NCBI GenBank assembly: GCA_017541105.1
Contig: JAFXZS010000016.1
Coordinates: forward strand, 1 to 64,000
DNA: 64,000 bases
Direction of reading: 5' to 3'
Origin: Clostridia bacterium
GTDB lineage: Bacteria > Bacillota > Clostridia > Christensenellales > Aristaeellaceae
This document shows positions 7,295 to 30,041 of the stretch, piece after piece. The stretch's first letter is position 1, and the number at the start of each line of letters is the position of its first letter. Position numbers and translations under genes: made by a program. The notes under the pieces were generated by a model that saw nothing but the letters and a program-made list of their open reading frames with translations, was not told the origin of the DNA and did no database searches.

Positions 7295-7306
7295 CAGGGG
7301 TTTTGC

Positions 7307-7364: not shown

Positions 7365-7398
7365 AGCCGCTGAACTTTCCAAGCAGGAGTGAAGGAAG

Positions 7399-8424: not shown

Positions 8425-8439
8425 AGGAGAGAAAACGCG

Positions 8440-10848
8440 ATGAAAGTACCATACAGCTGGCTGAAGGAATATGTGGAGATCGACCTGACTCCTGAAGAGC
8501 TGCAGGAGAAGCTGTTCAGCTGCGGCTTTGAAGTGGAGGAGCTGATTCCGCTGGGAGGAGAAATCAGCAGGGTTGTCGTCGGCGAGGTGCTGGCATGCGA
8601 ACCCGTGGAAGGGACGCATCTGGCCATCTGCCAGGTGAACTGCGGCGAATTCGGGGAAAAGATTCAGATTGTGACCGGCGCGCCCAATGTATATACAGGC
8701 ATGCACACGCCGGCCGCGCTGGACGGGGCAACGCTGCCCGGCGGCGTGAAGATTGCCGCCAAGCCCCTGAAAGGCATTCCTTCCAACGGAATGATGTGCT
8801 CCGGAGAAGAACTGGGGCTGAACGAGGATCTGTATCCCGGCGCGGAAGTGTACGGCCTGCTGGACCTGCCGAAGGATACCGTTCCGGGCACGGACATCCG
8901 GGATGTGACAGGCCTGAATGACTGTATTTTCGATATCTCCGTCACAGCCAACCGGCCGGACTGCCAGAGCATTCTGGGGATCGCGCGGGAAGTGGCGGCC
9001 GTGCTGGGCAAAGAACTGAAAATGCCCGCAACGGATTATACGATGACGGAGACGACCGTGCCCGGGCTTGAAATCCGGGTGGACGCGCCGGATCTTTGTC
9101 CGCGGTATCTGGGGCATGCTGTCCGGAATATCACCGTCGGGGAAAGCCCCCGGTGGATGCGCCGCCATCTGGCGCTGTGCGGCCTGCGGTCCATCAGCAA
9201 CGTAGTGGATATCACCAACTATGTCCTGCTGGAGATCGGCCAGCCGATGCACGCTTTTGACATGGATCAGCTGCAGGAACGGAAGATTATTGTCCGCCGG
9301 GCCGTGAATGGGGAAAAAATTCAGACGCTGGACGAGAAAGAGTTCACGCTGAACAGCGAAAACCTGGTGATCTGCGACGGGAACCGCCCGGTCGCCCTGG
9401 CGGGCATTATGGGCGGGCTGAACAGTGAAATCACGGAGGAAACGACGCAGCTGCTGTTTGAGGCTGCCAAGTTCGCGCGGGACAACGTGCGCAAAACGTC
9501 CCGTTCACTGGGCCAGAGCAGCGATTCTTCCGCACGTTTTGAAAAGGGGATCAGCGAATACACCACCGAACTGGGCATGGCGCGGGCGTTGCACCTGATC
9601 CAGGAACTGAACTGCGGCGAGATTACCTCCAGCGCGTTTGACTGCAGCGCGGGCGCATCCCGGGAAGGGAAGCGTTTCACCGCGAGCCTGAAGCGGATCA
9701 ACGCGATCCTGGGCATTGAGGTGCCCGCGGAGGAAGTGCTGCGGATTCTGAAGAACCTGAACTTTGAGGTGGCACGGGAAGGGGACATCCTGCAGGTGAC
9801 CGCTCCGCGCTATCGGGAAGATATCGAAGTCGGCGAACCAGACCTGGCGGAGGAAGTAATCCGGGAATACGGCTACGGCCATGTGACGCCCACCTTCCTG
9901 AAGGCAGCCACTGTGACCAGCGGCGGAAAAACACCCGCCCAGATGCGGCGGGACCGGGCAGCCCGGCTCATGTGCGCCCAGGGATACAACGAGATCTGCA
10001 CCCTTTCCTTCTACGCAGACGCGGATCTGGATGCGCTGAAGATTCCGGAGGATGTACCGGAGCGGAATGTGCTCCGGATTCAGAATCCGATTTCCGAAAA
10101 GCTGGCCATCATGCGGCCGCTGCTGGCCCCCAGTATGCTGAATATCGTGGTTGAAAACCTGAAAAAGGGCAACCATGAGGGCAGAATTTTCGAAATCAGC
10201 AACGTGTATCTGCCGGGACAGGAAGGGAACGCACCGGAAGAGCGGGCGCATCTCGGCTTTGCAGCCTTCGGCGACGCGGAAGACTTCTTTACCGTCAAAG
10301 GCAGCCTGGAAGCGCTGGGAGAATCACTGGGCATTCAATTCAGTGTGGAGCGGGCGGAAGATGTGAGCTACCTGCATCCCGGCATTGCCGCTTACCTGGT
10401 GTGCGAAGGAGAACGGATCGGCGTCTTCGGCAAGCTGGCCAACGAGGTGACGGCCGAGCTGAAGCTGCATAAGGACAGCAAAGCGAACTACCAGATCTAT
10501 CTCGGTGAAATCGATTATGAGCGGATGATGTCCCATGCGGCACTGTCCGTACGGTATCGGCCGATATCCGCCTTTGCGCCTGTGGTCCGCGACCTTGCGC
10601 TGACAGTGGCGGAGGAGATTCCCTGCGGCGCCCTGATGAGCGAGATCACCCGTGCATGCCCCAGCGTCAGTGACGTGGAGCTGTTTGACGTCTACCGCGG
10701 CGAGCAGATCGGGGAGGGAAAGAAGAGCATGGCCTTCAAGATCCGCTTTGAAGCCGGGGACAAAGCACTGACCCCGGAGGAAGTGGACCGGTTTATCAAG
10801 AAAATCCTCGGAAATCTGAAATTCAAACTCGGAGCGGAAATCCGCTGA
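8440..10848 (+). CDS. pheT: Phenylalanyl-tRNA synthetase beta subunit
   Basis: 802 residues, the usual length. The N-terminal tRNA-binding OB domain is at about 40-150, followed by B3/B4 editing domains, which clear Tyr-tRNA-Phe; the B5 domain is near 400-475. The inactive class II core follows, and the C-terminal anticodon-binding (FDX-ACB) domain is at about 708-800 (YRPISAFAPVVRDLAL). AAAGGAGAG precedes ATG. It is co-transcribed with pheS and ends at a strong terminator. Confidence 0.98.
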   Translation: MKVPYSWLKEYVEIDLTPEELQEKLFSCGFEVEELIPLGGEISRVVVGEVLACEPVEGTHLAICQVNCGEFGEKIQIVTGAPNVYTGMHTPAALDGATLPGGVKIAAKPLKGIPSNGMMCSGEELGLNEDLYPGAEVYGLLDLPKDTVPGTDIRDVTGLNDCIFDISVTANRPDCQSILGIAREVAAVLGKELKMPATDYTMTETTVPGLEIRVDAPDLCPRYLGHAVRNITVGESPRWMRRHLALCGLRSISNVVDITNYVLLEIGQPMHAFDMDQLQERKIIVRRAVNGEKIQTLDEKEFTLNSENLVICDGNRPVALAGIMGGLNSEITEETTQLLFEAAKFARDNVRKTSRSLGQSSDSSARFEKGISEYTTELGMARALHLIQELNCGEITSSAFDCSAGASREGKRFTASLKRINAILGIEVPAEEVLRILKNLNFEVAREGDILQVTAPRYREDIEVGEPDLAEEVIREYGYGHVTPTFLKAATVTSGGKTPAQMRRDRAARLMCAQGYNEICTLSFYADADLDALKIPEDVPERNVLRIQNPISEKLAIMRPLLAPSMLNIVVENLKKGNHEGRIFEISNVYLPGQEGNAPEERAHLGFAAFGDAEDFFTVKGSLEALGESLGIQFSVERAEDVSYLHPGIAAYLVCEGERIGVFGKLANEVTAELKLHKDSKANYQIYLGEIDYERMMSHAALSVRYRPISAFAPVVRDLALTVAEEIPCGALMSEITRACPSVSDVELFDVYRGEQIGEGKKSMAFKIRFEAGDKALTPEEVDRFIKKILGNLKFKLGAEIR

Positions 10849-10855
10849 AGCATAC

Positions 10856-10885
10856 CCGGACGGCTGGGAAGACCGTCCGGTTTTT
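10856..10885 (+). terminator. Intrinsic terminator after pheT
   Basis: CCGGACGG (10856-10863) pairs with CCGTCCGG (10873-10880), followed by TTTTT. It separates pheST from the sugar-transport locus. Confidence 0.92.
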
Positions 10886-10954
10886 CCATTTCCTGGAAGA
10901 ATAAACGGCTGCGGAGGCGGTGAGCGGCTCCCGAAGAAGCGGCAAGAGTGATGA

Positions 10955-10983
10955 TTGACAGCAGACAGATTCAACGGTATAAT
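10955..10983 (+). promoter_or_regulatory. Consensus promoter of the ABC/DUF5696 operon
   Basis: Perfect TTGACA (10955-10960), 17-bp spacer, perfect TATAAT (10978-10983). The untranslated leader to the ATG at 11093 is about 100 bases. It contains a small TGCGG/CCGCA hairpin (11004-11017) and an 11-bp palindrome CGTTTAAAACG (11030-11040) that could be an operator. No regulator gene lies beside the operon. Confidence 0.85.
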
Positions 10984-11092
10984 CTATCAGGTTATATACT
11001 TTTTGCGGTTACCCGCAGAACAGAATATCCGTTTAAAACGCTATACGCAATGGTGTACCTGCGTGCTGAACGGGGCAACGGGAGATGAACTC

Positions 11093-13975
11093 ATGTCAAG
11101 AAAATGGCGGAATGTGCTCATTGGGGTTCTTGCGGCTGCGGCGGTTGTAGCGCTCTTTATTCTGCTCAGTCAGGGCGCTTCCGACTACAGCAGCAAGTAT
11201 GCCGGGACGGACCTGTCCACAGATATCAGCGGGATCGGCCGGAGCAATACGTATGAGGCGTATGTGGCTTCCCATGCTTCTGAACCGGAAGTGAAGGAAG
11301 AGGTTCCGGTTGACGTGCGGACTTTCAGCGGAGACGCTTCACTTCAGGCAGAAGGGCTTCTGACGCCGGACGGATCTGAAGTGACCTGGACGGTGAATGT
11401 ACCCCGGGCCGGTCTGTACAATATCCGGCTGGAGTACCTGACCACCCAGAGCCGCGGGGTTGATATTGAGCGTGAACTGCTGATTAACGGGGAGCTGCCC
11501 TTTACCGGCGCGAGCACGCTGACACTCAGCCGCCTGTGGACTGATTCGGGGGAAGTCCGGAAGGACAACCAGGGGAATGATATCCGTCCCAGCCAGGTTG
11601 AAGTGTTTGACAAACAGACCGTTTATTTCCGGGATGACATGGGATATCAGACCGAACCCTATGCTTTTTATTTCCAGGAAGGCGAAAATACGCTGACCCT
11701 GCGGGCTGTGAACGAGCCGATGGTTGTCTGCGGCATGACGCTGACACCCATCGTGAAGTATCCGGAGTATGCGGATTATCTTGCTGCGCAGCCGCAGGTC
11801 TCCATGACCGACGAAGGGAAGAATTACGCGCAGACGGTGCAGGGCGAGGCCGCGGAACTGCGCAGCGCCCCCAGCCTGTACGCGCGCTATGACCGCAGCA
11901 GTTCGAAGACGGTCCCGTACTCTGTGACCAACACGATTCTGAATTATATCGGCGGGGATCCGTGGACCCATGCCGGCGAGTGGATCCAGTGGGATTTCGA
12001 GGTGCCGGAGGACGGCTATTACAATATTTCCATCAAAGCGCGCCAGATGTATCAGCGCGGCGCTCTTTCCGGCCGTACCGTCTATATTGACGGAGAAGTG
12101 CCGTTCAAAGACCTGGAGGCCGTTACCTTCGGCTACAATACCCGCTGGGAAATGCGAACGCTTGCCGACGCGGAGGGGAATCCGTTCCGCTTCTATCTGA
12201 CCAAGGGGAAGCATAACATCCGCATGGAAGTTACGCTCGGCGAGATGGGCCCGGTGCTGAAACAGGTGGAGGACAGCATTTTCCGCCTGAACCAGATTTA
12301 CCGGAAGCTGCTGGTGCTGACAGGAGCAAATCCTGACCGGTTCCGGGATTACAAGCTGAACCAGGTCTATCCGGAAGTCATTGAGGCGATGGATCTGGAA
12401 AGCAAGCGCCTGTACAAGATTGTCGATGATATCGTAGCCACCACCGGTGAGAAGAGCGACCGCGCCGCCAGCGCACAGACCCTGGCCGTGCAGCTGGAAC
12501 AGTTCATGCAGATGAACGAACGGATCACGGAAAGCTTCACCAGCTTCAAGGATAACATCACCTCCCTGGGCACCGCGATGCAGAATATGTCCGAGAGCAA
12601 GCTGGACGTGGACCTGATCATGATCACCGGCGAGAATACCAAGGTGCCTGAGGTGCGGGAGACGTTCCTCGAAGGCGTAGCCCACGAGATCCGCAGCTGC
12701 GTCAGCTCCTTCTTTGTGGATTACAACTCCCTGGGCAACAAATATGACGATACGGACGATGTGCTGGATATCTGGATCACGACGGGCCGCGACCAGAGCA
12801 CTGTCCTGAAGACCATGGTGGACGATACCTTTACGGCGAAATCCGGTATCAAGGTCAATATCAAACTGGTACAGGCAGACGCCATTCTGACTGCCGTCGT
12901 GGCCGGAAACGGGCCGGACATCGTTCTGAGCGTCAGCGGCTGGTTCGCCGTGAACTACGCCATGCGCAACGCGGTCGAGGATCTGACCCAGTTCTCGGAC
13001 TTTGAGGAAGTGGTTCAGCCGTTCTATCAGAGCATTATCGATCCGCTGAGTTATAACAACGGAACGAAGGTCGGCGTGTACGGCCTTCCGGAGACGCAGG
13101 ATTTTCCGCTGCTTTTCTACCGCACAGATATTATGGAAGAAATGGGGCTGAAGATCCCGGAAACCTGGGAGGAGCTGATTGCCGAGCTGCCGACGATTCA
13201 GGGGGACAGCCTGACGGTGGCGGTTCCGTTCCCGGATATCACGATTGCCGATACATCCGTATTCAATTCGATGATTTACCAGAACGGCGGCGAGATTTAC
13301 GAGAAGGACGCGAAGCGCACCCTGATTGACAGCGAGGCAGGCGTGGCGGCCTTCAAACAGTATGTCAGCCTTTACAACGACTACGGCCTGCCGACCATTT
13401 TCGATTTCGTCAGCCGTTTCCGCAGCGGCGAGATGCCGATGGGTGTGGCGTCCTATGCGACGTATAACACGCTGATGGTTTCCGCACCGGAAATCCGGGG
13501 CCTGTGGGACTTTACGACGATCCCGGGCACACTCCGGGAGGACGGCACGATCGACATCACTTCGCATACCGCGGGCCTGTGCTGCATGATGATCAAAACG
13601 GACGATGAAAAAGTCCGGAACAACGCGTGGGAATTCATGAAGTGGTGGGTCAGCGCGGACGCGCAGGTTCGCTTCGGCCGTGAAATGGAAAGCGTGCTGG
13701 GCGCCAGCGCCCGTTACCAGACCGCCAACCGCGACGCACTGCGGCAGCTGGCATGGAGCAATTCTCAGCTGGCCGTGCTGGAGAAACAGATGTCCCACAC
13801 CCATGGTTTCCCGGAAATCGCCGGCGGTTATTCTACAACACGCCATATGACCAACGCGATCCGCAGGGTCATCACCACGAAAGAGGATCCGCGCGAGACG
13901 CTGCTGACATACGCGAGGACCATTAACGAAGAAATCAAGATTAAACGGCGGGAATTCAACCTGCCGATCGATTAA
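11093..13975 (+). CDS. Membrane-anchored fusion: two carbohydrate-binding-like domains plus ABC solute-binding domain
   Basis: 960 residues, about twice a normal sugar-binding protein. An N-terminal helix (about 6-25) without lipobox anchors it. Two beta-sandwich segments follow (about 70-240 and 285-390), each with a GxYxIxIxxR-type carbohydrate-binding core (RAGLYNIRLEYLT; EDGYYNISIKAR). A helical spacer (about 400-530) leads to a family 1 extracellular solute-binding domain (about 555-880; WITTGRDQSTVLKTMVDD, GNGPDIVLSV, ETWEELIAELP). ATG at 11093 has GGAG eight bases upstream; an earlier in-frame start at 10955 would lie inside the promoter. It probably presents an oligosaccharide to the permeases downstream. 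The ligand is unknown. Confidence 0.85.
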   Translation: MSRKWRNVLIGVLAAAAVVALFILLSQGASDYSSKYAGTDLSTDISGIGRSNTYEAYVASHASEPEVKEEVPVDVRTFSGDASLQAEGLLTPDGSEVTWTVNVPRAGLYNIRLEYLTTQSRGVDIERELLINGELPFTGASTLTLSRLWTDSGEVRKDNQGNDIRPSQVEVFDKQTVYFRDDMGYQTEPYAFYFQEGENTLTLRAVNEPMVVCGMTLTPIVKYPEYADYLAAQPQVSMTDEGKNYAQTVQGEAAELRSAPSLYARYDRSSSKTVPYSVTNTILNYIGGDPWTHAGEWIQWDFEVPEDGYYNISIKARQMYQRGALSGRTVYIDGEVPFKDLEAVTFGYNTRWEMRTLADAEGNPFRFYLTKGKHNIRMEVTLGEMGPVLKQVEDSIFRLNQIYRKLLVLTGANPDRFRDYKLNQVYPEVIEAMDLESKRLYKIVDDIVATTGEKSDRAASAQTLAVQLEQFMQMNERITESFTSFKDNITSLGTAMQNMSESKLDVDLIMITGENTKVPEVRETFLEGVAHEIRSCVSSFFVDYNSLGNKYDDTDDVLDIWITTGRDQSTVLKTMVDDTFTAKSGIKVNIKLVQADAILTAVVAGNGPDIVLSVSGWFAVNYAMRNAVEDLTQFSDFEEVVQPFYQSIIDPLSYNNGTKVGVYGLPETQDFPLLFYRTDIMEEMGLKIPETWEELIAELPTIQGDSLTVAVPFPDITIADTSVFNSMIYQNGGEIYEKDAKRTLIDSEAGVAAFKQYVSLYNDYGLPTIFDFVSRFRSGEMPMGVASYATYNTLMVSAPEIRGLWDFTTIPGTLREDGTIDITSHTAGLCCMMIKTDDEKVRNNAWEFMKWWVSADAQVRFGREMESVLGASARYQTANRDALRQLAWSNSQLAVLEKQMSHTHGFPEIAGGYSTTRHMTNAIRRVITTKEDPRETLLTYARTINEEIKIKRREFNLPID

Positions 13976-13994
13976 GGAAGGAGGATCGTAAAGC

Positions 13995-14939
13995 ATGCAG
14001 TCACAGTCATTCGCATCCCGCTATCTGACGATGAGGCGTGAAAAAATACAGCACGGCTGGGCACTGGCCAAACGGAACAAAGTCTGTTATCTGTTCCTCG
14101 CGCCGTACGCCGTCCTGTTTTTCACGTTTTTCATCCTTCCGATTGCGACATCCATTTTTTACAGCTTTACGTATTACAATATTCTGGAGCCTGCCCGCTT
14201 TATCGGGTTCCAGAATTACATCAACCTGATCCTGCAGGACGAGGTATTCCTTACGGCGGTCAAGAACACGTTCGTGATTGCCGTGATTACCGGCCCGATC
14301 GGGTATATCCTTTCCTTCCTCTTTGCCTGGTTCATCAACGAACTGCCCAAATGGCTGCGGGCGGTGGCGGTTGTCGTCTTTTATGCGCCTTCCATCGCAG
14401 CGAACGCCTATACCGTCTTCTCCATCATTTTCCGGGGCGACGCCTACGGCTGGTTCAACGCGATTCTGATGGAGTTCGGGCTGATCGACGCGCCGAAGCT
14501 GTGGCTGCTGGATCCGACTTATATGATGACGATCCTGATTATTGTCATTCTGTGGATGAGCATGGGCACCGGATTCCTGAGCTTTGTTGCAGGATTCCAG
14601 GGAATCGACCGCAGCATGTACGAGGCCGGTTATGTGGACGGGGTCCGGAACCGCTGGCAGGAGCTGTACCACATTACGCTGCCCAGCATGAAACCCATGC
14701 TGCTGTTCGGCGCTGTTATGAGCATTACTTCGGCATTCAACGTCAGTGACGTGCCGAGAGCCCTGTGCGGGTATCCGTCCACAGACTATGCGGCACGCAC
14801 AGTGGTTACCCACCTGTTTGACTACGGTTTCAGCCGGTTTGAGATGGGCTATGCCAGCGCCATCGCGACAATCCTGTTCCTGGTCATGATTCTTTGCAAG
14901 AAAGCAATTGCCGGATTGCTGGGAAGGGTGGGAACCTGA
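13995..14939 (+). CDS. Sugar ABC transporter permease (MalF/UgpA type)
   Basis: 314 residues with six predicted membrane helices and the ATPase-contacting EAA loop EAGYVDGVRNRWQELYHITL in the expected place near residue 215. It forms the channel with the next gene, importing the sugar delivered by the upstream binding fusion. GGAGG lies about ten bases before ATG. The gene follows by 19 bases and precedes its partner by one base. No ATPase is encoded nearby, as in many Firmicutes that share MsmX. Confidence 0.93.
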   Translation: MQSQSFASRYLTMRREKIQHGWALAKRNKVCYLFLAPYAVLFFTFFILPIATSIFYSFTYYNILEPARFIGFQNYINLILQDEVFLTAVKNTFVIAVITGPIGYILSFLFAWFINELPKWLRAVAVVVFYAPSIAANAYTVFSIIFRGDAYGWFNAILMEFGLIDAPKLWLLDPTYMMTILIIVILWMSMGTGFLSFVAGFQGIDRSMYEAGYVDGVRNRWQELYHITLPSMKPMLLFGAVMSITSAFNVSDVPRALCGYPSTDYAARTVVTHLFDYGFSRFEMGYASAIATILFLVMILCKKAIAGLLGRVGT

Positions 14940-14940
14940 G

Positions 14941-16167
14941 ATGAGTGAAGTGAGTACCGTTAAATCCGCCGGAATTATGAAAACAATTACCGGCAAGAAG
15001 TACCGTGGAACCCTGGTAGCGACGGAAACCGGCGCAGCCTTTTACGAAAAAGGGAAGGACCAGCCGCTGGTGGAATGGCAGTATCCCAGGCTGCACCGGA
15101 TGGACAATATCCGCCGGGGCGGTGTCAGCAGCCAGGTTACCGTCATCCTGAAGGACGAAAGCCGCTATGTATTCGACCTGGATTACGGCCTGAAGATCTA
15201 TAACCATATGGATAAGCACTGGGTGGACAAGCCTGTCACACCCAGGACGCGGGGCGATGAGTTACACCGCCTGGCGGAGCTGCGCGGCGAAAAGATTGAG
15301 GTGCCGAAGAAGCACTGGATCACCCGCCGCCACCCGAACCGTTCCATCGGCGGCGATATCGGCATCTACCTGCTGCTGATTATCATCGGTGCTGCAATGG
15401 TCTTCCCGCTGGTCTTCCAGATCGGCGCGTCCCTGAAACCGTTGGACGAGTTTTTCCGCTTTCCGCCGCCCGTATGGCCGCAGCATCCCACTACAGACAA
15501 CTTCTCCGACCTATTCGTAACGATGGGCCAGAGCTGGGTACCATTCAGCCGGTACCTGGTAAACACGGTTTTCATCACGCTTGTCGGGACCCTCGGGCAT
15601 CTGATCATCGCCAGCATGGCTGCTTTCGTGCTGGCCAAGTATCAGTTTCCCGGCGGCAGAACCTTCTTCACCGTTGTCACGACCTGCCTGATGTTCTCCG
15701 GCTATGTGACAGGCATTCCCAACTATCTGATCATGAGCAGGCTGGGAATGATCGACACCTATTGGGCACTGATCCTTCCGGCTTTCGCGGCCCCTATCGG
15801 GCTGTTCCTGATGAAGCAGTTTATGGAAGGTCTGCCCACCGCGCTGATTGAAGCGGCAACCATTGACGGCGCAAGCACCTTCGGCGTGTTCTGGCATATT
15901 GTGATGCCGAACGTGAAACCCGCCTGGCTGACAATGATCATCTTCAGCGTGCAGAGCCTGTGGAACACCAGCGCCGCAACGGTTATCTACTCTGAAGCCA
16001 AGAAAACACTGGTGTATGCGCTCGGGCAGATCCAGGCCGGAGGTATCGCCCGTACCGGCCAGGTTGCCGCGGCGCAGGTGATCATTACAGCGGTTCCGAT
16101 TATCATCTTCATTCTCAGCCAGAGCCGGATCCTGGAAACGATGGCTTCCTCCGGCATCAAGGATTAA
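14941..16167 (+). CDS. Sugar ABC transporter permease (MalG type) with extra N-terminal beta domain
   Basis: 408 residues, about 130 longer than a typical MalG-type permease. Residues about 135-405 hold six membrane helices and the EAA loop (IEAATIDGASTFGVFWHIVM). The extra N-terminus (GKKYRGTLVATETGAAFYEK..., residues about 17-95) alternates strands in a PH/GRAM-like way (TVILKDESRYVFDLDYGLKI) and should be cytoplasmic. It may bind an ATPase, lipid or regulator; this is a guess. ATG at 14941 is one base past the upstream stop. Confidence 0.9.
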   Translation: MSEVSTVKSAGIMKTITGKKYRGTLVATETGAAFYEKGKDQPLVEWQYPRLHRMDNIRRGGVSSQVTVILKDESRYVFDLDYGLKIYNHMDKHWVDKPVTPRTRGDELHRLAELRGEKIEVPKKHWITRRHPNRSIGGDIGIYLLLIIIGAAMVFPLVFQIGASLKPLDEFFRFPPPVWPQHPTTDNFSDLFVTMGQSWVPFSRYLVNTVFITLVGTLGHLIIASMAAFVLAKYQFPGGRTFFTVVTTCLMFSGYVTGIPNYLIMSRLGMIDTYWALILPAFAAPIGLFLMKQFMEGLPTALIEAATIDGASTFGVFWHIVMPNVKPAWLTMIIFSVQSLWNTSAATVIYSEAKKTLVYALGQIQAGGIARTGQVAAAQVIITAVPIIIFILSQSRILETMASSGIKD

Positions 16168-16181
16168 GGGAGGGAGGAAAG

Positions 16182-17714
16182 ATGATGAAAAAAGCGGTTT
16201 CCTTTCTGCTGGCCCTGATGCTGCTCTCTGTTTCCGCCGCGTTCGCGGATGACAGCAACAGCATGAAAGAGGACGGATTCAGCACTTCCTATTCATACAA
16301 TTACGATTACTGGGGCGACGTCCAGATGTCTCCGGATCCGTACCGCGTGGAAACGGTCATCGACAGCACCACCCTGGGGCTTGAGAACCTTGAGAATACA
16401 CGGATCAGCAAACCGCAGGGAATCTTCGTCCGCAATTCCGATATCTATGTGGTGGATACGGGCAACAGCCGGATCCTCCAGATCAGCTACCGGAACGGCA
16501 ACGCCGAACTGAAGCGGATTATCCGGGAAGTGAACGGTGCGGAACCCGCGACGTTCAAGACCCCGATGGACGTTTTCGTGGACGAGGAGGAAAATATCTA
16601 TATCGCGGATCAGGACAACAACCGGGTTCTGATGACAGACAAGGACCTGAATGTACTGAAAACCTTTGTCAAGCCGACGGACGCCACGTTTAACCAGTCT
16701 TCCGCCTTCCTGCCGACCAAGATCACGGTGGATGTGGCCGGACGGCTGTATGTGCTGGCAACCAACGTCAACAAGGGCTTTATGAAGTACGAAAACGACG
16801 GAACCTTTACGGGGTATATCGGAGCCAATGCCGTCAAAGTCAATATGGCGGACTATATCTGGAAGCGGTACTTCATGTCCAGGGAACAGCGCGCGGCTTC
16901 CGAAAGCTTTGTTCCGACGGAATATGAGAACATGTATATGGATGATAAGGGCTTCATCTACGCGACAACCACCGTTTTCAGCGAGTACGAGCTTCTTTCC
17001 GACACAGCCAAGCCCATCCGGCGGCTGAACGGCATCGGGAACGACATCCTGATCAAGAACGACCGTTATCCGCCGATCGGCGACCTGGACTGGAAGTCAG
17101 AGAGCCTGCAGTACGGCCCCTGCAAAATGGCGGACATCACCGCGCTGAAGAATGAGATCTATGTGGTGGTGGACAGGGTCCGCGGCCGCCTTTTCGGGTA
17201 CGACAGCCAGGGCGTCATGCTCTGGGCTTTCGGAACCAAGGGAAGCATGGACGGCACCTTCAACCGCGCGATCGGCCTCGAACACATGGGATATGATCTG
17301 CTGGTCCTCGACGAGATGAAAAACAGCATCACGATTTTTACACCGACGGAGTACGGACAGCTGATCTACGACGCGACAGATGCGTATCTGAACGGTGAAT
17401 ATGATTACAGCGCGGAACTGTGGGAGAACGTCATGAAGCTGAACGCCAACTACACCCTGGCTTTCCGCGGAATCGGACGGTCCAAGCTGCGCCAGGAAAA
17501 GTACGAGGAAGCCATGGACTACTTTGAACGCGCCCACGCGCGGGAGGAGTACGGCCGGGCCTTCAAGCAGTACCGGAAGATCTGGGTGGAAAAAAACATC
17601 TGGTGGATTATCCTGATTCTGGCACTGATCCTGATTGTACCGCTGCTGATCGGACGGTCCAAGAGAATGAAATGGGAGGTGATCATGCATGAACACGGAA
17701 AAGTTCACAAGTAA
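16182..17714 (+). CDS. Exported NHL-type beta-propeller with TPR and C-terminal membrane anchor
   Basis: 510 residues with a signal peptide (ends ..SAAFADD, about 1-23). NHL-like repeats occupy about 65-400 (KPQGIFVRNSDIYVVDTGNS, TPMDVFVDEEENIYIADQDN). A TPR-like helical pair lies near 410-460 (YTLAFRGIGRSKLRQEKYEE), and a single helix at about 474-492 is followed by a basic tail. The layout suggests an outer-face propeller held by the membrane. Such propellers often bind peptides or sugars, some as lactonases, but no catalytic residues can be assigned. GGGAGGGAGG precedes ATG. Confidence 0.8.
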   Translation: MMKKAVSFLLALMLLSVSAAFADDSNSMKEDGFSTSYSYNYDYWGDVQMSPDPYRVETVIDSTTLGLENLENTRISKPQGIFVRNSDIYVVDTGNSRILQISYRNGNAELKRIIREVNGAEPATFKTPMDVFVDEEENIYIADQDNNRVLMTDKDLNVLKTFVKPTDATFNQSSAFLPTKITVDVAGRLYVLATNVNKGFMKYENDGTFTGYIGANAVKVNMADYIWKRYFMSREQRAASESFVPTEYENMYMDDKGFIYATTTVFSEYELLSDTAKPIRRLNGIGNDILIKNDRYPPIGDLDWKSESLQYGPCKMADITALKNEIYVVVDRVRGRLFGYDSQGVMLWAFGTKGSMDGTFNRAIGLEHMGYDLLVLDEMKNSITIFTPTEYGQLIYDATDAYLNGEYDYSAELWENVMKLNANYTLAFRGIGRSKLRQEKYEEAMDYFERAHAREEYGRAFKQYRKIWVEKNIWWIILILALILIVPLLIGRSKRMKWEVIMHEHGKVHK

Positions 17715-18384
17715 GTCGACTACGAAGACCGGCCCCGGCAGGACGACAACCTGGCTGAACCGTTACGGCCAGTCTTTGAAATATGCGCTGCATGTGATCA
17801 CTCATCCATTCGACGGATTCTGGGACCTGATCCACGAGAAGAAGGGAAGCATCGCCGCGGCGAACACATTCCTGGCGCTCTTCCTGCTCATCCGCGTGCT
17901 GAAACTGATCGCCACCAATTTCCAGTTCATCATGGCGCCGATCCAGCACATCAACGTTTTTGAAGAAATGGGCTCCCTGCTGCTGCCCTTCCTGGTTCTG
18001 TGCGTTGCGAACTGGGCGATGACCACGCTGTTTGAAGGCAAAGGCCGGTTCAGGGATATCTATATGGGCATGTGCTATGCGCTGGTGCCTTATATCATTA
18101 TCCAGCTGCCCATGATCCTGGTCAGCAACATGCTGACCTTTGAGGAAGGAAGCTTTTACAGCGTGCTCCTCAACTTCTCCGTCATCTGGTGCGTTTTCCT
18201 GGTGTTTGTGGGCCTGATGGAGATCCACGACTACGGCCCCGGGAAAACATTCATATTCCTGATCGTGACGGTCGTCGGCGCCGGCGTGATCCTGTTTCTG
18301 ATGCTGGTGTTCTTCAGCCTGCTCAGCGACGCTTTCGCGTTCTTTGTCAGCTTCTACCGTGAGATCGTCTTCAGACTGAATTGA
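17689..18384 (+). CDS. YIP1 family integral membrane protein
   Basis: 231 residues with about five helices after a basic cytoplasmic N-terminus. The pattern RYALHVITHPFDGFWDLIHE-like entry, then a helix bundle with NWAMTTLFEGKGRFRDIYMG and YALVPYIIIQLP, fits bacterial YIP1 proteins. Their role is unclear; one idea is membrane organisation or transport assistance. It overlaps the NHL gene by 26 bases, with GGGAGGTGAT before its ATG, so it belongs to the same operon. Confidence 0.8.
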   Translation: MNTEKFTSKSTTKTGPGRTTTWLNRYGQSLKYALHVITHPFDGFWDLIHEKKGSIAAANTFLALFLLIRVLKLIATNFQFIMAPIQHINVFEEMGSLLLPFLVLCVANWAMTTLFEGKGRFRDIYMGMCYALVPYIIIQLPMILVSNMLTFEEGSFYSVLLNFSVIWCVFLVFVGLMEIHDYGPGKTFIFLIVTVVGAGVILFLMLVFFSLLSDAFAFFVSFYREIVFRLN

Positions 18385-18395
18385 GGAGGGGGAAG

Positions 18396-20978
18396 ATGAT
18401 GGACAGAAACAGGAAGAAAAAGATCATCCGCCGCCTGATCGCTCTGGGAATCATCCTGGCGCTGCTTGCCGGGCTGGTATATTTGTTCTATCTGATTTAC
18501 ACCGAGAAGGACGTTACCTCCGGCAGGGAACCGCGCCTGATTTTCTATGAAGGGGACGGGGAACCGGTTACCATCGAGAACGACAAAATCGCGCTGGAGA
18601 TGGATGCCGGGACGACGCAGTTCAAGGTGACCAGCAAGGAGACCGGCAAGGTCTGGTATTCCAATCCTCAGGACTGGGACAAGGATCCGATCGCCCACGG
18701 CGTGAACAGCGATTTTCTTGCTTCGACGCTGACCCTGACATACACCATTGCGGGCAGCGAAACGGAGCTGAACAATTACCGCTATTCCATGGTGAACCAG
18801 AATTACAATATCATTAAGGAAAACGATACGACGCTCCGGATTGAGTACGCGATCGGCAAGATCGAGCGGACTTACTTCATTCCGTTTGCGATCACCGTCG
18901 ACCGCTACAAGGAACTGACCGGCCAGATGTCCGGCGGCGACAAGAAGAAGGTATCTTCCTTCTATTCCCTGTACGATGCAAAGAAGATCGCCAAGCTGGA
19001 CAACCTGGAGGAAATGAAGGAATCCTATCCGGGAATCGAAGAAGGAAACCTCTACATCCTGAAATCCGGCACCGATTCAAAGAGCAAGGAAAAGATCGAG
19101 GGATACTTCTCGACCGTCGGCTACGACCAGGAACAGTATGAGATCGACATGCAGAATGTCACACAGACCACATCGAACAACGGGCCGTACTTCAACGCTA
19201 CGATGATCCTCCGGCTGGAGGGGGATCAGCTGGTGGTGGAGGTTCCCTATTCCGAAATCACATATGAGGCGGAATACCCGCTGACATACCTTGCAGTGCT
19301 GCCGATGTTCGGCGCTGCGGGAACGGAAGATGAAGGATTCATCTTCATTCCCGAGGGCAGCGGCGGCCTGATCCGGTACAACAACGGAAAGCTCTCCCAA
19401 AGCAGCTATTATGCGAACTTCTACGGCTGGGACTACGGCGAGGAACGGACCGAAGCCGTCAGCGAAACCGAGAACACGTTCGCGGTGTTCGGCATGGGAC
19501 AGGACGACGGCTCCTTCATCTGCATGATTGAAGGCGCCAGCTCCTACGGCGGCATCTACGCGGACGTGGCCGGGCGTTTCAACAGCTTTAACACGGTATA
19601 CTGCAAGTACAACCTGATTCATTACGGACAGTTCAAGCTGTCCGGACGGACCAACGAGCAGGTGCTGATGTACGAGAACACCATCCCGGACGATACGGTG
19701 ATTCAGCGGTACCGTTTCCTCGATGCCGGCAATTATGTCGGGATGGCCGAAGCCTACGGAGATTACCTGCGGAGCCTGCCGGAGTTCAAACAGGAACAGG
19801 CGGACCCGGACGCTCCCATCCATGTGGAGCTGATCGGCGCGATCGACAAGATCGTTCCCAAACTTGGCATTCCAGTGGACTCCGTCGTGGCGACCACCAC
19901 CTTCAGCGAAGCGCAGGAGATCATGGATGAACTGACCGGCAGCGGCGTCCGGCACCTGAATCTGAGGATGACAGGATGGAGCAACGGCGGCGTTCAACAG
20001 AAAGTACTGAGCGGCGTCCACACTCTGGGAGAACTGGGCGGAGACTCCGGAATGAAAAAGCTGATCGCCGCGGCAAAGGAAAAGGGCGTTTCGCTCTACT
20101 TCGACGGAATCAGCTGCTTCGCCTATGACAGCGGCCTGCTGGAGGGCTTTATCCCGACGCTTCACGCTGCACGGTTTACTACCCGCGAGCTTGTTAAACT
20201 TTATCCGTACTACATCGTTAATTACCAGCAGTGCGACTGGGAGGATCCGTATTACCTGGTGAAGCCCAGGATCGCCTCGCAGTATGCGGACAACCTGGTG
20301 AACGGCCTGAAGGACCGAGGGAGCGAGGGCGTCGCGTTCCGGGATATCGGCAACCTGCTGAGCGCCGACTATTATAAAAATGATACCGTCACCCGCGAAG
20401 AGGTCAAGGCCCTGAACGTCGATGCCCTGAAGAAGGCGCAGGACCTCGGGCTGAAGATCAGCATCAAGAAGGGGAACGACTACGCGATCTCCTACGCGGA
20501 CCTGATCACAGATATGAACCTGACAGGACGGAAGTATGCGATTATCGACCAGGCGGTTCCGTTCTACCAGATCGCGCTGCACGGGCTGAAGAACTATACC
20601 GGCGAGGCGATCAACCTTGCCGGCGATTACCAGAACGCGCTGCTGGAAAGCGCCGAGTATGGCGCGGGCCTGAACTTCTCCTTCATGAAGACGGATACGA
20701 ACATCCTGCAGGATTCCGCCTACAGCTGCTACACGGCCGCTTCCTACGACCGCTGGAAAGACGACGTGCTCCCGATGATTCTCCGCTACCAGTCCGAAAT
20801 GTCCGGGCTGAACAGCCAGCGGGTCACCGATCATGAGTTCATCACCAACGATGTCCATGTGACAACCTACGAAGACGGTACGCGCGTGTATGTAAACTAC
20901 AGCGGCACGGATTTCAGCCAAGGAGCCGTCAAAGTACCTGCCCGTGACTACGTGGTTGAAAGGGGGAGTGCCAAGTGA
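18396..20978 (+). CDS. DUF5696-type putative glycoside hydrolase, membrane anchored
   Basis: 860 residues. An N-terminal helix (about 15-36) anchors an extracellular body. Residues about 50-480 look like a galactose-mutarotase-type beta-sandwich (FIFIPEGSGGLIRYNNGK). A TIM-barrel-like region follows (about 480-790): VELIGAID, LNLRMTGWSNGG, SLYFDGISCF (Asp570), FRDIGNLLSADYY (Asp650, Asp658), PFYQIALHG. A small C-terminal sandwich ends DGTRVYVNYSG. These match my memory of DUF5696 proteins in Paenibacillus operons with ABC transporters. Hydrolysis of a glycan is inferred from the fold, not shown. AGGAGGGG precedes ATG at 18396; a TTG at 18381 is less likely. Confidence 0.78.
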   Translation: MMDRNRKKKIIRRLIALGIILALLAGLVYLFYLIYTEKDVTSGREPRLIFYEGDGEPVTIENDKIALEMDAGTTQFKVTSKETGKVWYSNPQDWDKDPIAHGVNSDFLASTLTLTYTIAGSETELNNYRYSMVNQNYNIIKENDTTLRIEYAIGKIERTYFIPFAITVDRYKELTGQMSGGDKKKVSSFYSLYDAKKIAKLDNLEEMKESYPGIEEGNLYILKSGTDSKSKEKIEGYFSTVGYDQEQYEIDMQNVTQTTSNNGPYFNATMILRLEGDQLVVEVPYSEITYEAEYPLTYLAVLPMFGAAGTEDEGFIFIPEGSGGLIRYNNGKLSQSSYYANFYGWDYGEERTEAVSETENTFAVFGMGQDDGSFICMIEGASSYGGIYADVAGRFNSFNTVYCKYNLIHYGQFKLSGRTNEQVLMYENTIPDDTVIQRYRFLDAGNYVGMAEAYGDYLRSLPEFKQEQADPDAPIHVELIGAIDKIVPKLGIPVDSVVATTTFSEAQEIMDELTGSGVRHLNLRMTGWSNGGVQQKVLSGVHTLGELGGDSGMKKLIAAAKEKGVSLYFDGISCFAYDSGLLEGFIPTLHAARFTTRELVKLYPYYIVNYQQCDWEDPYYLVKPRIASQYADNLVNGLKDRGSEGVAFRDIGNLLSADYYKNDTVTREEVKALNVDALKKAQDLGLKISIKKGNDYAISYADLITDMNLTGRKYAIIDQAVPFYQIALHGLKNYTGEAINLAGDYQNALLESAEYGAGLNFSFMKTDTNILQDSAYSCYTAASYDRWKDDVLPMILRYQSEMSGLNSQRVTDHEFITNDVHVTTYEDGTRVYVNYSGTDFSQGAVKVPARDYVVERGSAK

Positions 20979-21985
20979 AAAACAAAACCAGGCGCAACCA
21001 CTGGTACGAAGGCATTACGGAAGCCGTGAAGATGTATATTCCCGGCAACAACACCTATCGTACCATTCAGGCCAGGCGGGCCCGCATCGGCACGCGTTTC
21101 ATCCTTCCCCTGATTATCGGATTCCTGGTCTTCATGGTCCGGCCTCTGATCATTTCCCTTCAGATGAGCATGAGCCAGGTCAATGTCGGGCAGGGAACGA
21201 TGACGCCGTTCAACGTCAGCCTGGACATCCTGGGAACCAGGATGGTGCTGCCCTTCGGCAATTACAACTACGCGTTTGTTTCGGATCCCGATTTCACCAA
21301 ACTGCTGGTCAGCGAGATCGGCCGGATGGCCATCAACACGATTGCCACCCTGGTCATGAGTTTTGTGATCGCCGTCATCCTGAACCAGGATTTCAAAGGA
21401 CGTACCTTTTGCCGGGTTATCTTCTTCCTGCCGGTAATCCTGTCCTCCGGTGTGCTGCCCGGCATTGAAAGCCAGAATGCCTATTTCAACCTGATGACCA
21501 GCATATCGGATGCCGTGAACGAGTCCTCCGGCGTAAACCTTTCCCAGGCGCTGCAGAACCTCCTGTCCGTATCCGGCGTCGCCAGGGATGTTTTCGATGT
21601 TATCTTCCAGATGATTGACGCGATTTACGACATTGTCATGGCAAGCGGTATCCAGATCATCGTATTCCTGACCGGCCTGCAGTCCATTTCGCCCTCCCTG
21701 TATGAAGCGGCAGACGTGGAAGGCTGCTCCGCATGGGAATCCTTCTGGAAGATCACCTTCCCGATGGTCAGCCCGCTGCTGCTGGTAAACTGCATCTACA
21801 CGATCATCGACTTCTTCATGAAGAACGACAATACGGTCATGGAACATATCAACCAGGTGATGTACGGGACCCAGATGGATTTCGGCGCCGCATCCGCTGA
21901 AAGCTGGATCTATTTCGGCGTGGCGCTGCTGTTCATCGGAATCAGTACATTCATCATCACAAGGGCGGTGAAGTCCTATGAGTAA
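20975..21985 (+). CDS. Sugar ABC transporter permease (MalF/UgpA type), second pair
   Basis: 336 residues starting at GTG, which overlaps the DUF5696 stop (GTGA), with AGGGGGAG upstream. About six helices; the EAA loop (YEAADVEGCSAWESFWKITF) is near residue 245. Relative to the first permease it carries an enlarged loop (about 160-225) between helices. It pairs with the next gene, which it overlaps by eight bases. Confidence 0.92.
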   Translation: MKNKTRRNHWYEGITEAVKMYIPGNNTYRTIQARRARIGTRFILPLIIGFLVFMVRPLIISLQMSMSQVNVGQGTMTPFNVSLDILGTRMVLPFGNYNYAFVSDPDFTKLLVSEIGRMAINTIATLVMSFVIAVILNQDFKGRTFCRVIFFLPVILSSGVLPGIESQNAYFNLMTSISDAVNESSGVNLSQALQNLLSVSGVARDVFDVIFQMIDAIYDIVMASGIQIIVFLTGLQSISPSLYEAADVEGCSAWESFWKITFPMVSPLLLVNCIYTIIDFFMKNDNTVMEHINQVMYGTQMDFGAASAESWIYFGVALLFIGISTFIITRAVKSYE

Positions 21986-22988
21986 AAACAATACGATCTT
22001 CATCGGAGAGAACAAAAGCTTCCGGGAGCGAAACCGCCGCAGCGGGGGATACCTGCTGAAGCGCCGGGCAGGCCAGGTCACGATTTCCATTGTGCGCGCT
22101 CTGCTGATGTTCGGCCTGTGTTTCATGATCATTCAGCCGCTGGTCACCCGCTTCTCCGTCAGCCTGATGGCCGCGGAGGATCTCTATGACTCCACAATCC
22201 GGCTGCTGCCGCGGAATGTGACACTGGACAATTACCGGATCGTCGCTGAACTGACATCCATGCCGGCATCCATGATCAACACAGCGTGGATCTCGCTGGT
22301 CATGTCGCTGTGCCAGGTGGTATCCACGACACTGGTGGCTTATGGTTTCGCGCGTTACGAGTTTCCGCTCAAGAGGTTCTGGTTCGCCTGCGTGGTGCTG
22401 CTGATTATCATTCCGCCGCAGACGATTCAGACCGCACTGTTCATGTCCTTTACCCATTTCGATATCTTCGGTATCATCAAGGCCACGACCGGCAGCGATA
22501 TCAACCTGCGTTCCTCGCTGATCCCGTATACGCTGATGTGCCTGACCTGCATGGGCCTGAAGGACGGTCTGTATATTTACATGCTCCGCCAGTATTTCAG
22601 GAGTGTTCCGGTCAGCCTCGAAGAAGCGGCCTACGTGGACGGATGCGGCACGATCCATACCTTTGTCAAGATCATGCTTCCGGACGCGGTGCCGACGATC
22701 GCCAGCTGTTTCCTCTTCAGCTTTGTCTGGCAGTGGACCGACCTGTTCTATACGCGGAACTTTATCTCCGGATACAAAATTTATTCCAGGGAACTGAGCA
22801 ATATCACCTCCATCATGAGCAAGTACTTTGCCAGGAACGCGACCGAAAATATCACAGTTCCGCTGGGACGCCAGATGCAGCTGATCGGTATCGGCGTGTT
22901 CGTATGCTGTGTACCGCTGATTATTCTGTACGCTTTTACGCAGAAAACCTTCGTACAGAGCCTGACCATGACAGGTTCCAAGGAATAA
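21978..22988 (+). CDS. Sugar ABC transporter permease (MalG type), second pair
   Basis: 336 residues, about six helices, EAA loop EEAAYVDGCGTIHTFVKIML near residue 215. No extra N-terminal domain, unlike the MalG-type permease at 14941. It completes the second channel of the locus. Its likely substrate protein is the binding protein at 23160, which has its own promoter. No terminator is evident in the 171 bases that follow. Confidence 0.92.
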   Translation: MSKNNTIFIGENKSFRERNRRSGGYLLKRRAGQVTISIVRALLMFGLCFMIIQPLVTRFSVSLMAAEDLYDSTIRLLPRNVTLDNYRIVAELTSMPASMINTAWISLVMSLCQVVSTTLVAYGFARYEFPLKRFWFACVVLLIIIPPQTIQTALFMSFTHFDIFGIIKATTGSDINLRSSLIPYTLMCLTCMGLKDGLYIYMLRQYFRSVPVSLEEAAYVDGCGTIHTFVKIMLPDAVPTIASCFLFSFVWQWTDLFYTRNFISGYKIYSRELSNITSIMSKYFARNATENITVPLGRQMQLIGIGVFVCCVPLIILYAFTQKTFVQSLTMTGSKE

Positions 22989-23039
22989 AACGGATTCATC
23001 AGCTGTTGCTTCAAAAACATAAAAGTACACTTCAGATAC

Positions 23040-23068
23040 TTGATTGTCGGTTCTGATTGCGATATAAT
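23040..23068 (+). promoter_or_regulatory. Promoter of the second solute-binding protein
   Basis: TTGATT (23040-23045), 17-bp spacer, perfect TATAAT (23063-23068). The leader is about 80 bases, with AAGGAGG before the ATG at 23160. It allows more of the binding protein to be made than of the permeases. Confidence 0.8.
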
Positions 23069-23159
23069 TTCCATGTAGCGAGAGATCGCAATAAAACGTA
23101 CCTATACAGGGCTCTGTGTATGAGTTCTGTAAGGAAATAAAGAAGGAGGTTTTCTCGGT

Positions 23160-24653
23160 ATGAAGAAAATCATGGCTCTGGTTCTGGCTGCTTTGATGCT
23201 GCTGGGCTGCTGCAGCTTCGCGGCTGCGGAAGAACTTCCGGAAGGCTATCCGGAAATCATCGAAGGTCTCGACTTCGGTGGACAGACGGTTTACATCTAT
23301 GACTGGTGGTCCAGCGATGATGTGGATCATTCCACCCGTCAGGCTGATCCCGATGAAGAAACCCAGCTGCTCTACGACTATCGTGACTGGCTGGAAGCCA
23401 CCTACAATGTGAAGATCGTGAACTGCGCCTGGGACAAGGGCGGCTGGCAGGAAAGCCCCCAGGAGCTCGCCAACATGGCGAATGACGGCAAGGCCGACGA
23501 TCTGTGCCTGATCGTTATCGACCCGAACTTCGCCGGCGGACCTCTGGCGAACGGCCTGATCGAAGAGTGGACCATCGACCTGACCGGACCGCAGTGGCTG
23601 TCCTCTGTTTCTGATCTGATGACCAAGGACGGCAAGGTTTACGGCGTATTCGCCGGTGACCAGGAACCCCGCGAAGAGATCTTCTTCAACAAGAAAGTTC
23701 TGGAAGATGCCGGTATCGACTACAACGAGATCTACGACCTGGCTGCGTCCGGCGAATGGACCTGGGCCAAGTTCGAAGAGTACATGGAGAAAGTCCAGCA
23801 GGACAAGGACAATGATGGCATCAACGACATCTGGGCCCTGACCGGCAACGGCGACCGCCTCTTCCGCGGCTGCGTGTACGGCAACGGCGCTGTCCTGTTC
23901 GACATGGACGAGAATGGCAAACTGGTTATCGCTGCTGACAGCGACGCCTGCCTGAAGGGCATTGCGCAGCGCCAGGAATGGGATCGGTTCATGCCCCAGA
24001 AGGCTGACTTCGCTCCCGACGGTGAGTGGAACTGGTTCGAAGGCTTCTGGAAGCAGGGCACAACTGCTTTCTTCGTAGGCCAGAACTACGAAGGCTTCGG
24101 CGACGAGAGCTGCCTGATGCGGAGCTGCGACTTCGAGTGGGGCTGCGTGCCGTTCCCGAAGGGACCCGATGCTGATGACTACTACTACGCTGCCGTGAAC
24201 AACGTTGTGGTCATCCCCGCCAACTGCTACGACGCTGAAACCGTCACCAAGCTGGAGCAGATCTACGCGCTGTACACCTATCCCACCCCCGGTGTGGACC
24301 AGGATACCGCCTGGATCGGCGACAAGTACACCTTCGCGGATGACAAGGCTGTGGATATCACCTTCGCCACCCTGCGTGATCCCAAGCGTGCTGTCGGTAA
24401 CAAGACCTACCTGCTGGGCGATGAAAACACCGTCCTGGGCAGCACCCTGATGTGGAACCTGGGCAGCGGCACCCCCGCTGAAATCATTGAAGGCGCCCGT
24501 GAAATCTGGCAGTTCCGCTGCGACGTGTTCAATGGCGACAAGACCGCTGACGATCTGAACAACTACATCGAAGAACAGCAGAGACTGGCTGAAGAAGCTG
24601 CTGCCGCTGCCGCGGAAGAAGCTGCTGAAGAAGCTCCCGCTGAGAATCCCTGA
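23160..24653 (+). CDS. Extracellular solute-binding protein (family 1)
   Basis: 497 residues. A signal peptide (MALVLAALMLLGCCSFAAAEE) has a possible lipobox at LLGC. The mature part is a two-lobed binding protein (FGGQTVYIYDWWSSDD; EEIFFNKKVLEDAGIDYNEI; SGEWTWAKFEEYM), rich in Trp and acidic residues, ending in an Ala/Glu tail. Codon use is visibly more biased (GCT, CTG, GAA, AAC) than in the neighbours, typical of abundant proteins. It probably serves the permeases at 20975-22988. A terminator follows directly. Confidence 0.9.
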   Translation: MKKIMALVLAALMLLGCCSFAAAEELPEGYPEIIEGLDFGGQTVYIYDWWSSDDVDHSTRQADPDEETQLLYDYRDWLEATYNVKIVNCAWDKGGWQESPQELANMANDGKADDLCLIVIDPNFAGGPLANGLIEEWTIDLTGPQWLSSVSDLMTKDGKVYGVFAGDQEPREEIFFNKKVLEDAGIDYNEIYDLAASGEWTWAKFEEYMEKVQQDKDNDGINDIWALTGNGDRLFRGCVYGNGAVLFDMDENGKLVIAADSDACLKGIAQRQEWDRFMPQKADFAPDGEWNWFEGFWKQGTTAFFVGQNYEGFGDESCLMRSCDFEWGCVPFPKGPDADDYYYAAVNNVVVIPANCYDAETVTKLEQIYALYTYPTPGVDQDTAWIGDKYTFADDKAVDITFATLRDPKRAVGNKTYLLGDENTVLGSTLMWNLGSGTPAEIIEGAREIWQFRCDVFNGDKTADDLNNYIEEQQRLAEEAAAAAAEEAAEEAPAENP

Positions 24654-24675
24654 TTCGGGGCATAGTGTTCCGGAC

Positions 24676-24703
24676 GGGCCGCTCGAAAGAGCGGCCCTTT
24701 TCT
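24676..24703 (+). terminator. Intrinsic terminator after the solute-binding protein
   Basis: A nine-bp stem GGGCCGCTC / GAGCGGCCC with a GAAA tetraloop, followed by TTTTCT. It closes the sugar-transport locus. Confidence 0.93.
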
Positions 24704-24820
24704 ATACATAGCAATATTCTGTGCCGCTCCTTCACAGAAATCACGATTCGCTGCCGGATGCGCAGGCTTTCCCTGAGGGATGAGGAAGAAGCACATCATC
24801 TGCGAAACTGATATTATCGC

Positions 24821-24849
24821 TTGAAAAGCATATCTCCGGCATATATAAT
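24821..24849 (+). promoter_or_regulatory. Promoter of the SAH-recycling genes
   Basis: TTGAAA (24821-24826), 17-bp spacer, perfect TATAAT (24844-24849). The leader is about 30 bases, which leaves no room for a riboswitch downstream of this start. Confidence 0.75.
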
Positions 24850-24884
24850 TCAAATGAGAAACAGGCAGACGGAGGGATATTATT

Positions 24885-26129: not shown

Positions 26130-26157
26130 GAAAAACAGTGAAGGCGGGGGCATACAC

Positions 26158-27480: not shown

Positions 27481-27635
27481 AAACGGTACGGAAAACGCGA
27501 GCATGACCGTACAGAGCGGCCGGGCATATGCCTGTAAATTGTGAGGGGAGCACCACGGACGGTGATTTGCCGGATCGGGAGCCGGATGCAGGCTTCGCCT
27601 GCCCGCGGCAGCGATACCGGGAACGGAGGATGCCT

Positions 27636-28862: not shown

Positions 28863-28864
28863 AA

Positions 28865-30032: not shown

Positions 30033-30041
30033 AAAGACCGG

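Follow-up and report, generated by a model that had tools for sequence, protein, structure and literature searches.

Carbohydrate importers of the CUT1 kind in Gram-positive bacteria combine substrate-binding proteins (SBPs) with pairs of BPD_transp_1 permeases and work with an MsmX-like ATPase that is encoded elsewhere, outside the operon. In the Bacteroidota, the SusC/SusD systems provide a conserved uptake chassis around which the glycosidases vary, and use an outer-membrane transporter. Here we report a computational analysis of an operon of nine tandem genes, located at positions 11093–24653 on the forward strand of a 64,000-nucleotide stretch from a Clostridia bacterium (assembly GCA_017541105.1, contig JAFXZS010000016.1, positions 1 to 64,000; hereafter, this whole stretch is referred to as the window). 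Like the CUT1/MsmX importers, the cassette encodes SBPs and BPD_transp_1 permease pairs, and an MsmX-like ATPase lies outside the operon in the same genome, but it differs from them in that two permease pairs are joined by an NHL/TPR protein, a YIP1 protein and an anchored DUF5696 protein in one conserved operon, and in that its first SBP is a 960-residue anchored fusion. Its likeness to SusC/SusD, a conserved chassis with variable glycosidases around it, is an analogy only, and to our knowledge no SusC/SusD component is homologous to any part of the cassette, which uses ABC permeases. The CUT1 kind of importer is known; the partner proteins that go with it here are conserved and unexplained. 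No publication on DUF5696, or on the combinations of parts for which we searched, was found in an open-access collection of papers.

Gram-positive polysaccharide utilization loci, in which a transporter stands beside carbohydrate-active enzymes (CAZymes) and a regulator, offer a second comparison. As in the Butyrivibrio xylan loci described in PMC6344614, the cassettes of many relatives sit with glycoside hydrolases (GHs) of families GH10, GH43, GH67, GH115 and GH3 and with AraC-type genes, and by gene count one homologue of the second binding protein (SBP2) corresponds to bpr_I0313, a gene in a locus of this kind. The window copy differs in having no adjoining CAZyme or regulator. Neither 'Yip1' nor 'NHL' occurs in the main text of PMC6344614.

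We judge it fairly probable that the cassette is a conserved two-permease CUT1 importer of glycan fragments, powered by an MsmX-type ATPase and accompanied by an anchored, probably non-catalytic DUF5696 protein. Two CUT1-type permease pairs would work with two binding proteins, one being the anchored fusion encoded by the first gene (g1) and the other SBP2 encoded by the last (g9), and energy would come from a stand-alone MsmX-type ATPase encoded elsewhere in the genome. The NHL/TPR protein and YIP1 would work as a single unit, the anchored DUF5696 protein would hold or guide the glycan at the cell surface, probably without cutting it, and the polymer would be cut by separate glycosidases that differ between clades.

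Conservation of the nine-gene cassette

The original prediction, made on this DNA from its letters, had described nine same-strand genes encoding a binding fusion, twin permease pairs, an NHL/TPR protein, YIP1 and DUF5696, and the gene calls and Pfam agree with that description (Table 1). It had also proposed that these genes form a single system, and had allowed that the parts might be found together only by chance in this lineage. In 248 genomes of the window's order, we counted 34 near-full-length DUF5696 matches (PF18952 at more than 390 bits) and 34 Yip1 matches (over the cut-off); 33 of the 34 DUF5696 matches have a Yip1 match no more than 3 kb away, and the converse holds for 33 of the 34 Yip1 matches.

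The loci examined individually comprised stretches of up to 20 kb plus 80 loci with organism titles, the latter being the best 80 of at least 535 confirmed relatives and hence a sample biased towards the window's clade; DUF5696-like genes in other contexts (L063–L068) were excluded from the cassette counts. In 112 loci the DUF5696 frame measures 540 residues or more; from these, 85 with at least 8 kb on the 5′ side and at least 2.3 kb on the 3′ side were kept and 27 with too short a flank were dropped. Parts were sought by tblastn with references from twelve sources, and permeases were judged by coverage (two permeases' worth per side). The complete set (SBP fusion, two permeases, NHL/TPR, YIP1, DUF5696 and two further permeases) is present in 82 of the 85 loci, and 81 pass an order test that asks only that the SBP fusion start before the first permease and the first permease lie before the NHL end. 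The loci failing one test or the other are L050 and L051, which have one upstream permease, L056, which lacks the SBP fusion, and L121, where an additional permease pair farther upstream tripped the order test. A preliminary test on gene calls, since superseded by the tblastn test, had found an SBP fusion together with NHL/TPR, one or more permeases and a permease downstream in 81/85. The conservation of the gene set is far above chance, and the gene order is repeated in many Firmicutes of the gut and rumen.

The NHL/TPR and YIP1 parts reside on one protein in 12 of the 85 loci. This fused protein has 671–723 residues, its C terminus reads as YIP1, no separate YIP1 gene accompanies it, and the Yip1 matches of the same genomes fall within these long frames. 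On a plasmid of Paenibacillus cellulosilyticus, the cassette has the same gene order, with NHL and Yip1 on one 719-residue protein and a UgpC ATPase in front, which agrees with the mention of similar Paenibacillus gene sets in the original prediction. Because of the near-universal full set, the DUF5696–Yip1 linkage in both directions and the NHL/TPR–YIP1 fusion, there is a strong case, built on gene content and order, that the nine genes act as one conserved system, and their products may form a single physical complex. Matches to a Butyrivibrio DUF5696, partial and distant ones included, occur in 86 of 391 genomes of the class and in 46 of 79 genomes of the genus of G272. Divergent DUF5696 loci number three or four in some genomes (G129 and G243; L038, L046, L051, L052, L055, L056 and L058), suggesting parallel importers for different glycans.

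The transport parts are those of a CUT1 importer, with SBP_bac_1 in g1, BPD_transp_1 in g2, g3, g7 and g8, and an MsmX/UgpC-type ATPase available both in P. cellulosilyticus, as mentioned above, and in the window's genome. The latter encodes an MsmX-like ATPase (G000:C3:217380-218495) that is 61% identical to the ATPase adjoining the cassette of one relative (L061:16300-17433). As the original prediction had stated, the nine operon genes include none for an ATPase, a regulator, a kinase or an ordinary GH, according to Pfam and NCBIfam. The close packing of g1 to g8, which overlap or lie near one another (spacing −26 to +19 bp), and the coverage-based finding of two permeases after DUF5696 in 85 of 85 loci and two before it in 83 speak against a view in which two importers, each independent and with a cargo of its own, have only the operon in common, the NHL/TPR, YIP1 and DUF5696 proteins being accessory to one of them. 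We consider such an arrangement quite unlikely, although g9 has its own promoter-like site behind a 171-bp gap, SBP2 varies far more than permease A (27–85% versus 65–94% identity to the window copy in one set of cassettes), and SBP2 went unrecognized by search in many distant loci. L050 and L051, with their single permease before DUF5696 and a permease-B-like gene downstream, would also suit two importers. These two loci represent a rearranged form of the cassette, in which the permease-B-like gene lies downstream of the SBP.

DUF5696 and the nucleophile column

By sequence, DUF5696 is a relative of the GH101 and GH129 glycosidases. The g6 product matches PF18952 with 607 bits, above the curated cut-off, over model positions 2–612 of 612. 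A profile of 28 DUF5696 copies matches the GH129-type structures 5opq (a 3,6-anhydro-D-galactosidase; 2.4e-10) and 5wzq (8.8e-10), and a profile of 11 copies matches 5wzn (NagBb; chain residues 220–361) at 3.1e-11, so that the similarity, which spans the barrel domain, lies at E values of about 1e-9 to 3e-11. For 5opq and 8rzg, it takes in the N-terminal region too. When four non-cassette relatives were compared with Pfam, DUF5696 was over the cut-off in all four, GH101 in three and GH129 in one.

The cassette proteins differ from these glycosidases in being membrane-anchored and in lacking the catalytic Asp of the LHLDGW motif of 5wzn, which we take to be the GH129 nucleophile; the 5wzq variant differs from 5wzn at this residue. 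In the alignment to 5wzn, the corresponding column is T531 in the window's g6 product. Across 109 aligned cassette copies (frames of 690–960 residues, including one identical pair, L042 and L115, and copies on short contigs with the cassette partly out of view), it holds T in 44, S in 44, R in 7, A in 4, K in 3, Q in 2, I in 2, M, L and V in 1 each, and D in none. By contrast, the non-cassette proteins L064, L065, L066, L067 and L068 retain DGW, GYDN, and HDQYRDYY or HDQFRDYF. Because the Asp is absent from this column in 109 of 109 cassette copies and present in five of six non-cassette relatives, the cutting role that the original prediction had assigned to DUF5696 is unsupported. The simplest reading is a pseudo-glycosidase with a retained sugar-binding fold, and we reason that the protein probably holds glycans; its predicted loss of catalysis is a sharp, testable claim. 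The sixth non-cassette protein, L063 (9437-11134), has lost the catalytic Asp as well, unlike the five others compared.

A capture-cut-import variant, as in the original prediction, would have DUF5696 act as an active surface glycosidase that trims glycans for both importers through residues other than the GH129 Asp. Its membership of the GH101/GH129 superfamily would fit such an activity, and because E483 (D or E in 104 of the 109 copies), E759 (in 103), D723 (D in 97) and D663 remain common, there is room for a different catalytic mechanism, a point that weighs against the non-catalytic role in our own reading. Set against this variant are the nucleophile column without a single D, the finding that no barrel acid checked is fully invariant in the 109 copies, and the ordinary-family enzymes that adjoin the cassette in many relatives and could do the cutting; we regard it as unlikely, if worth keeping in view. 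Returning to a non-catalytic DUF5696, we can tentatively picture this protein and the NHL/TPR–YIP1 unit as a funnel at the cell surface that would take in oligosaccharides when these are long or decorated, in a two-permease importer widespread in Firmicutes that would be a functional Gram-positive counterpart of SusC/D, re-used in each clade for different polymers. This picture is possible, but we would not call it probable.

Neighbouring enzymes and probable cargo

The original prediction had placed the operon among carbohydrate-related loci, and the neighbours of its relatives bear this out. In the Lachnospiraceae-like set (defined by title and list position), 107 of 138 flank proteins of at least 150 residues, from 26 of 28 loci, were scanned, and gave matches to AraC (13), GH43 (11), GH10 (10), GH3 (6), GDSL esterases (6), GH67 (2), GH8 (2) and GH115 (1). 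The 108 of 199 flank proteins scanned in the remaining set (44 of 51 loci) gave matches to GH5 (12), GH10 (10) and FGGY kinases (6). On a Butyrivibrio fibrisolvens plasmid, the cassette adjoins GH43, a histidine kinase and a response regulator.

The distribution of these enzymes was compared with a FastTree tree of the DUF5696 region past residue 240, which carries long-branch warnings. Of the 84 loci belonging to the window's clade, 27 have one or more of the xylan markers GH10, GH67, GH115 and GH8 in the sequence examined, versus 0 of 22 outside it, the split being read off the tree. In the closest relative (L069; 80% over the tree columns), GH10 is the next gene past SBP2. The window's own genome, in which absences mean little given its completeness of 62%, has two GH10 matches, both on other contigs. 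Xylan or arabinoxylan oligosaccharides would be the most likely cargo of the window's clade, and for the window itself a xylan-type cargo is probable because of this kinship.

Binding proteins from Butyrivibrio proteoclasticus B316 provide a link to growth on xylan. Contig C1 of genome G623 encodes seven proteins whose computed masses equal those published for B316 in tables of PMC5217386: XylB (I0173, 53.7 kDa), Agu67A (I0177, 76.1 kDa), an SBP (I0182, 63.3 kDa), Xyl3A (I0184, 78.2 kDa), Bga2A (I0279, 118.7 kDa), Xsa43H (I0301, 107.9 kDa) and Xsa43A (I0302, 57.5 kDa). The masses of Xsa43H and Xsa43A fit if an internal Met is taken as the start, and the computed isoelectric points lie about 0.2–0.3 above the published ones. 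By these seven anchors, we identify G623 as B316. Past I0302, the count runs through an AraC-like gene and a further gene to the SBP fusion (I0305), DUF5696 (I0310) and SBP2 (I0313), so that the cassette counts out to I0305–I0313; the gene calls lack three genes in the interval from I0279 to I0301 and two in that from I0177 to I0184, and the numbering could be off if a small gene was overlooked. I0313 is published as a binding protein, and SBP2 is the gene that fits. According to PMC6344614, bpr_I0182 and bpr_I0313 are two binding proteins identified in xylan-grown B316, in hemicellulose-use loci. We also considered the xylan-specific Bpr_I0182 as the cassette's SBP2 and rejected it, as I0182 sits in another locus.

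Glycan import is the likely function of the cassette, and transport would presumably be inward: the pairing of SBPs and BPD_transp_1 permeases, the neighbouring CAZyme and AraC genes and the report of an SBP from xylan-grown cells all point to uptake. They make it very improbable that the cassette is a sensing or membrane-homeostasis complex with permease-like subunits acting as receptors or exporters, an idea prompted by the presence of YIP1 and NHL/TPR proteins, which are unusual in importers, and by the Paenibacillus neighbourhood, where the annotation (an incomplete gene table) names no CAZyme up to 12 kb from DUF5696.

Several findings weigh against the assignment of xylan, or of any single cargo, to the importer. 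In the window's clade, 57 of the 84 loci lack all four xylan markers over the sequence examined, and at the window itself no CAZyme or carbohydrate-regulator family is found in the ten scanned flanking open reading frames (ORFs; 5876–10848 and 24885–35974). Genome-level co-occurrence of GH10 with the cassette in the window's family (11 of 12 genomes with the cassette versus 1 of 6) was set aside as non-specific. It is weak evidence because GH28 behaves nearly alike (9 of 12 versus 1 of 6) and because, outside the family, GH10 occurs in only 2 of 11 genomes with the cassette (versus 10 of 219 without). In B316, another xylan-specific SBP, I0182, lies outside any cassette. The inducer may also be broader than xylan, because PMC6344614 lists xylan-type enzymes as pectin-induced in B. 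hungatei MB2003. Finally, the cargo is not fixed, because in other clades the cassette goes with GH43/GH51 or GH94/PF10091, and in Paenibacillus with LLM flavin oxidoreductases. The chassis is re-used, and the cargo varies by clade. In P. cellulosilyticus (L192; NZ_CP054609.1 79363-105120), four LLM flavin-dependent oxidoreductases and two further SBPs come after the cassette, and the annotation of this stretch names no CAZyme, hinting at a quite different cargo.

If our reading of a glycan-fragment importer is correct, DUF5696 and two orphan membrane proteins would share a role in the uptake of plant-fibre fragments by gut and rumen Firmicutes. The cassette would then serve as a sequence marker of Gram-positive glycan-uptake loci, much as susCD does in Bacteroidota, with the neighbouring enzymes revealing the cargo.

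Features and surroundings of the window locus

The operon begins behind a promoter that the original prediction had called a perfect consensus, and it is the sole 12/12 match among 21 promoter-like sites in 10700–25000, where shuffles give a mean of 8.7. Five proteins had been described as extracytoplasmic and tied to the membrane; by hydropathy alone, the products of g1, g4, g6 and g9 look extracytoplasmic, whereas YIP1 is multi-spanning. Hydrophobic segments lie at residues 4–31 of the g1 product and at residues 1–24 and 466–496 of the g4 product. The NHL part of the latter is over its cut-off (30.3 bits versus 20), whereas the TPR match, at 16.5 bits, is under its cut-off of 27. The N-terminal region of the g1 product matches CBM_35 with 23.1 bits, under the cut-off of 28, and the top PDB match of this protein is Lin1841 (5ysb, 1.7e-13). 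The g9 product has no match in Pfam or NCBIfam.

Table 1 Features of the cassette and its boundaries in the window
Feature	Position	Strand	Evidence
Terminator-like stem in the interval between pheT and the operon	10862..10882	+	7 pairs, 3 G-C; weak consensus match
Sigma-70-type promoter, TTGACA-17-TATAAT	10955..10983	+	12/12 consensus matches
g1, N-terminally anchored 960-residue fusion (N-terminal region, then SBP domain), ATG at 11093	11093..13975	+	SBP_bac_1, 2.7e-22
g2, permease A	13995..14939	+	BPD_transp_1, 9e-13
g3, permease B	14941..16167	+	BPD_transp_1, 8.1e-11
g4, signal peptide, NHL region, TPR-like region, C-terminal membrane helix	16182..17714	+	NHL, 3.7e-07
g5, YIP1 multi-spanning membrane protein	17689..18384	+	Yip1, E 4.9e-14; 26-bp overlap with g4
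g6, N-terminally anchored DUF5696, GH101/GH129 superfamily	18381..20978	+	DUF5696, E 4.5e-182
g7, permease C	20975..21985	+	BPD_transp_1, 1.7e-08
g8, permease D	21978..22988	+	BPD_transp_1, 5.2e-11
Promoter-like site 5′ of g9, TTGATT-17-TATAAT	23040..23068	+	10/12; consensus only
g9, second SBP-like protein (SBP2)	23160..24653	+	Weak phmmer match to arabino-oligosaccharide-binding protein, E 0.0034
Intrinsic-terminator-like stem at the operon end	24676..24697	+	9 pairs, 8 G-C, then TTTTCTATAC

The 5′ neighbours of the operon are dnaA-, pheS- and pheT-type genes, and the 3′ neighbours are genes for an S-adenosylhomocysteine hydrolase, an amidohydrolase, an MFS protein, an APH-family protein, a metallo-hydrolase, an Na/H exchanger and a carbamoyl-phosphate synthase. 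The pheT gene lies upstream (8440–10848 in the window), and a pheT-like neighbour cluster, recognized by eye, occurs in the loci of nine relatives too; the site thus seems to be kept among close relatives.

Permease B of the window carries about 100 additional N-terminal residues (14941–15350), as do many of its relatives (about 400 residues in all), whereas most Lachnospiraceae-like copies, at about 300 residues, are without them. At 15 loci, the cassette is trailed by proteins whose first residues include HLPGLR or WHLPGF or lie close to it (for example, L116:16510-17496, L124:17890-18798 and L129:9665-10615); three were scanned, giving a weak U32-like match for one and no match in Pfam for the other two. 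Downstream of SBP2 in L117, L119, L135, L136, L139 and L142 lie HlyD-type proteins (two from L117 were scanned) together with an FtsX-like permease, recognized by eye.

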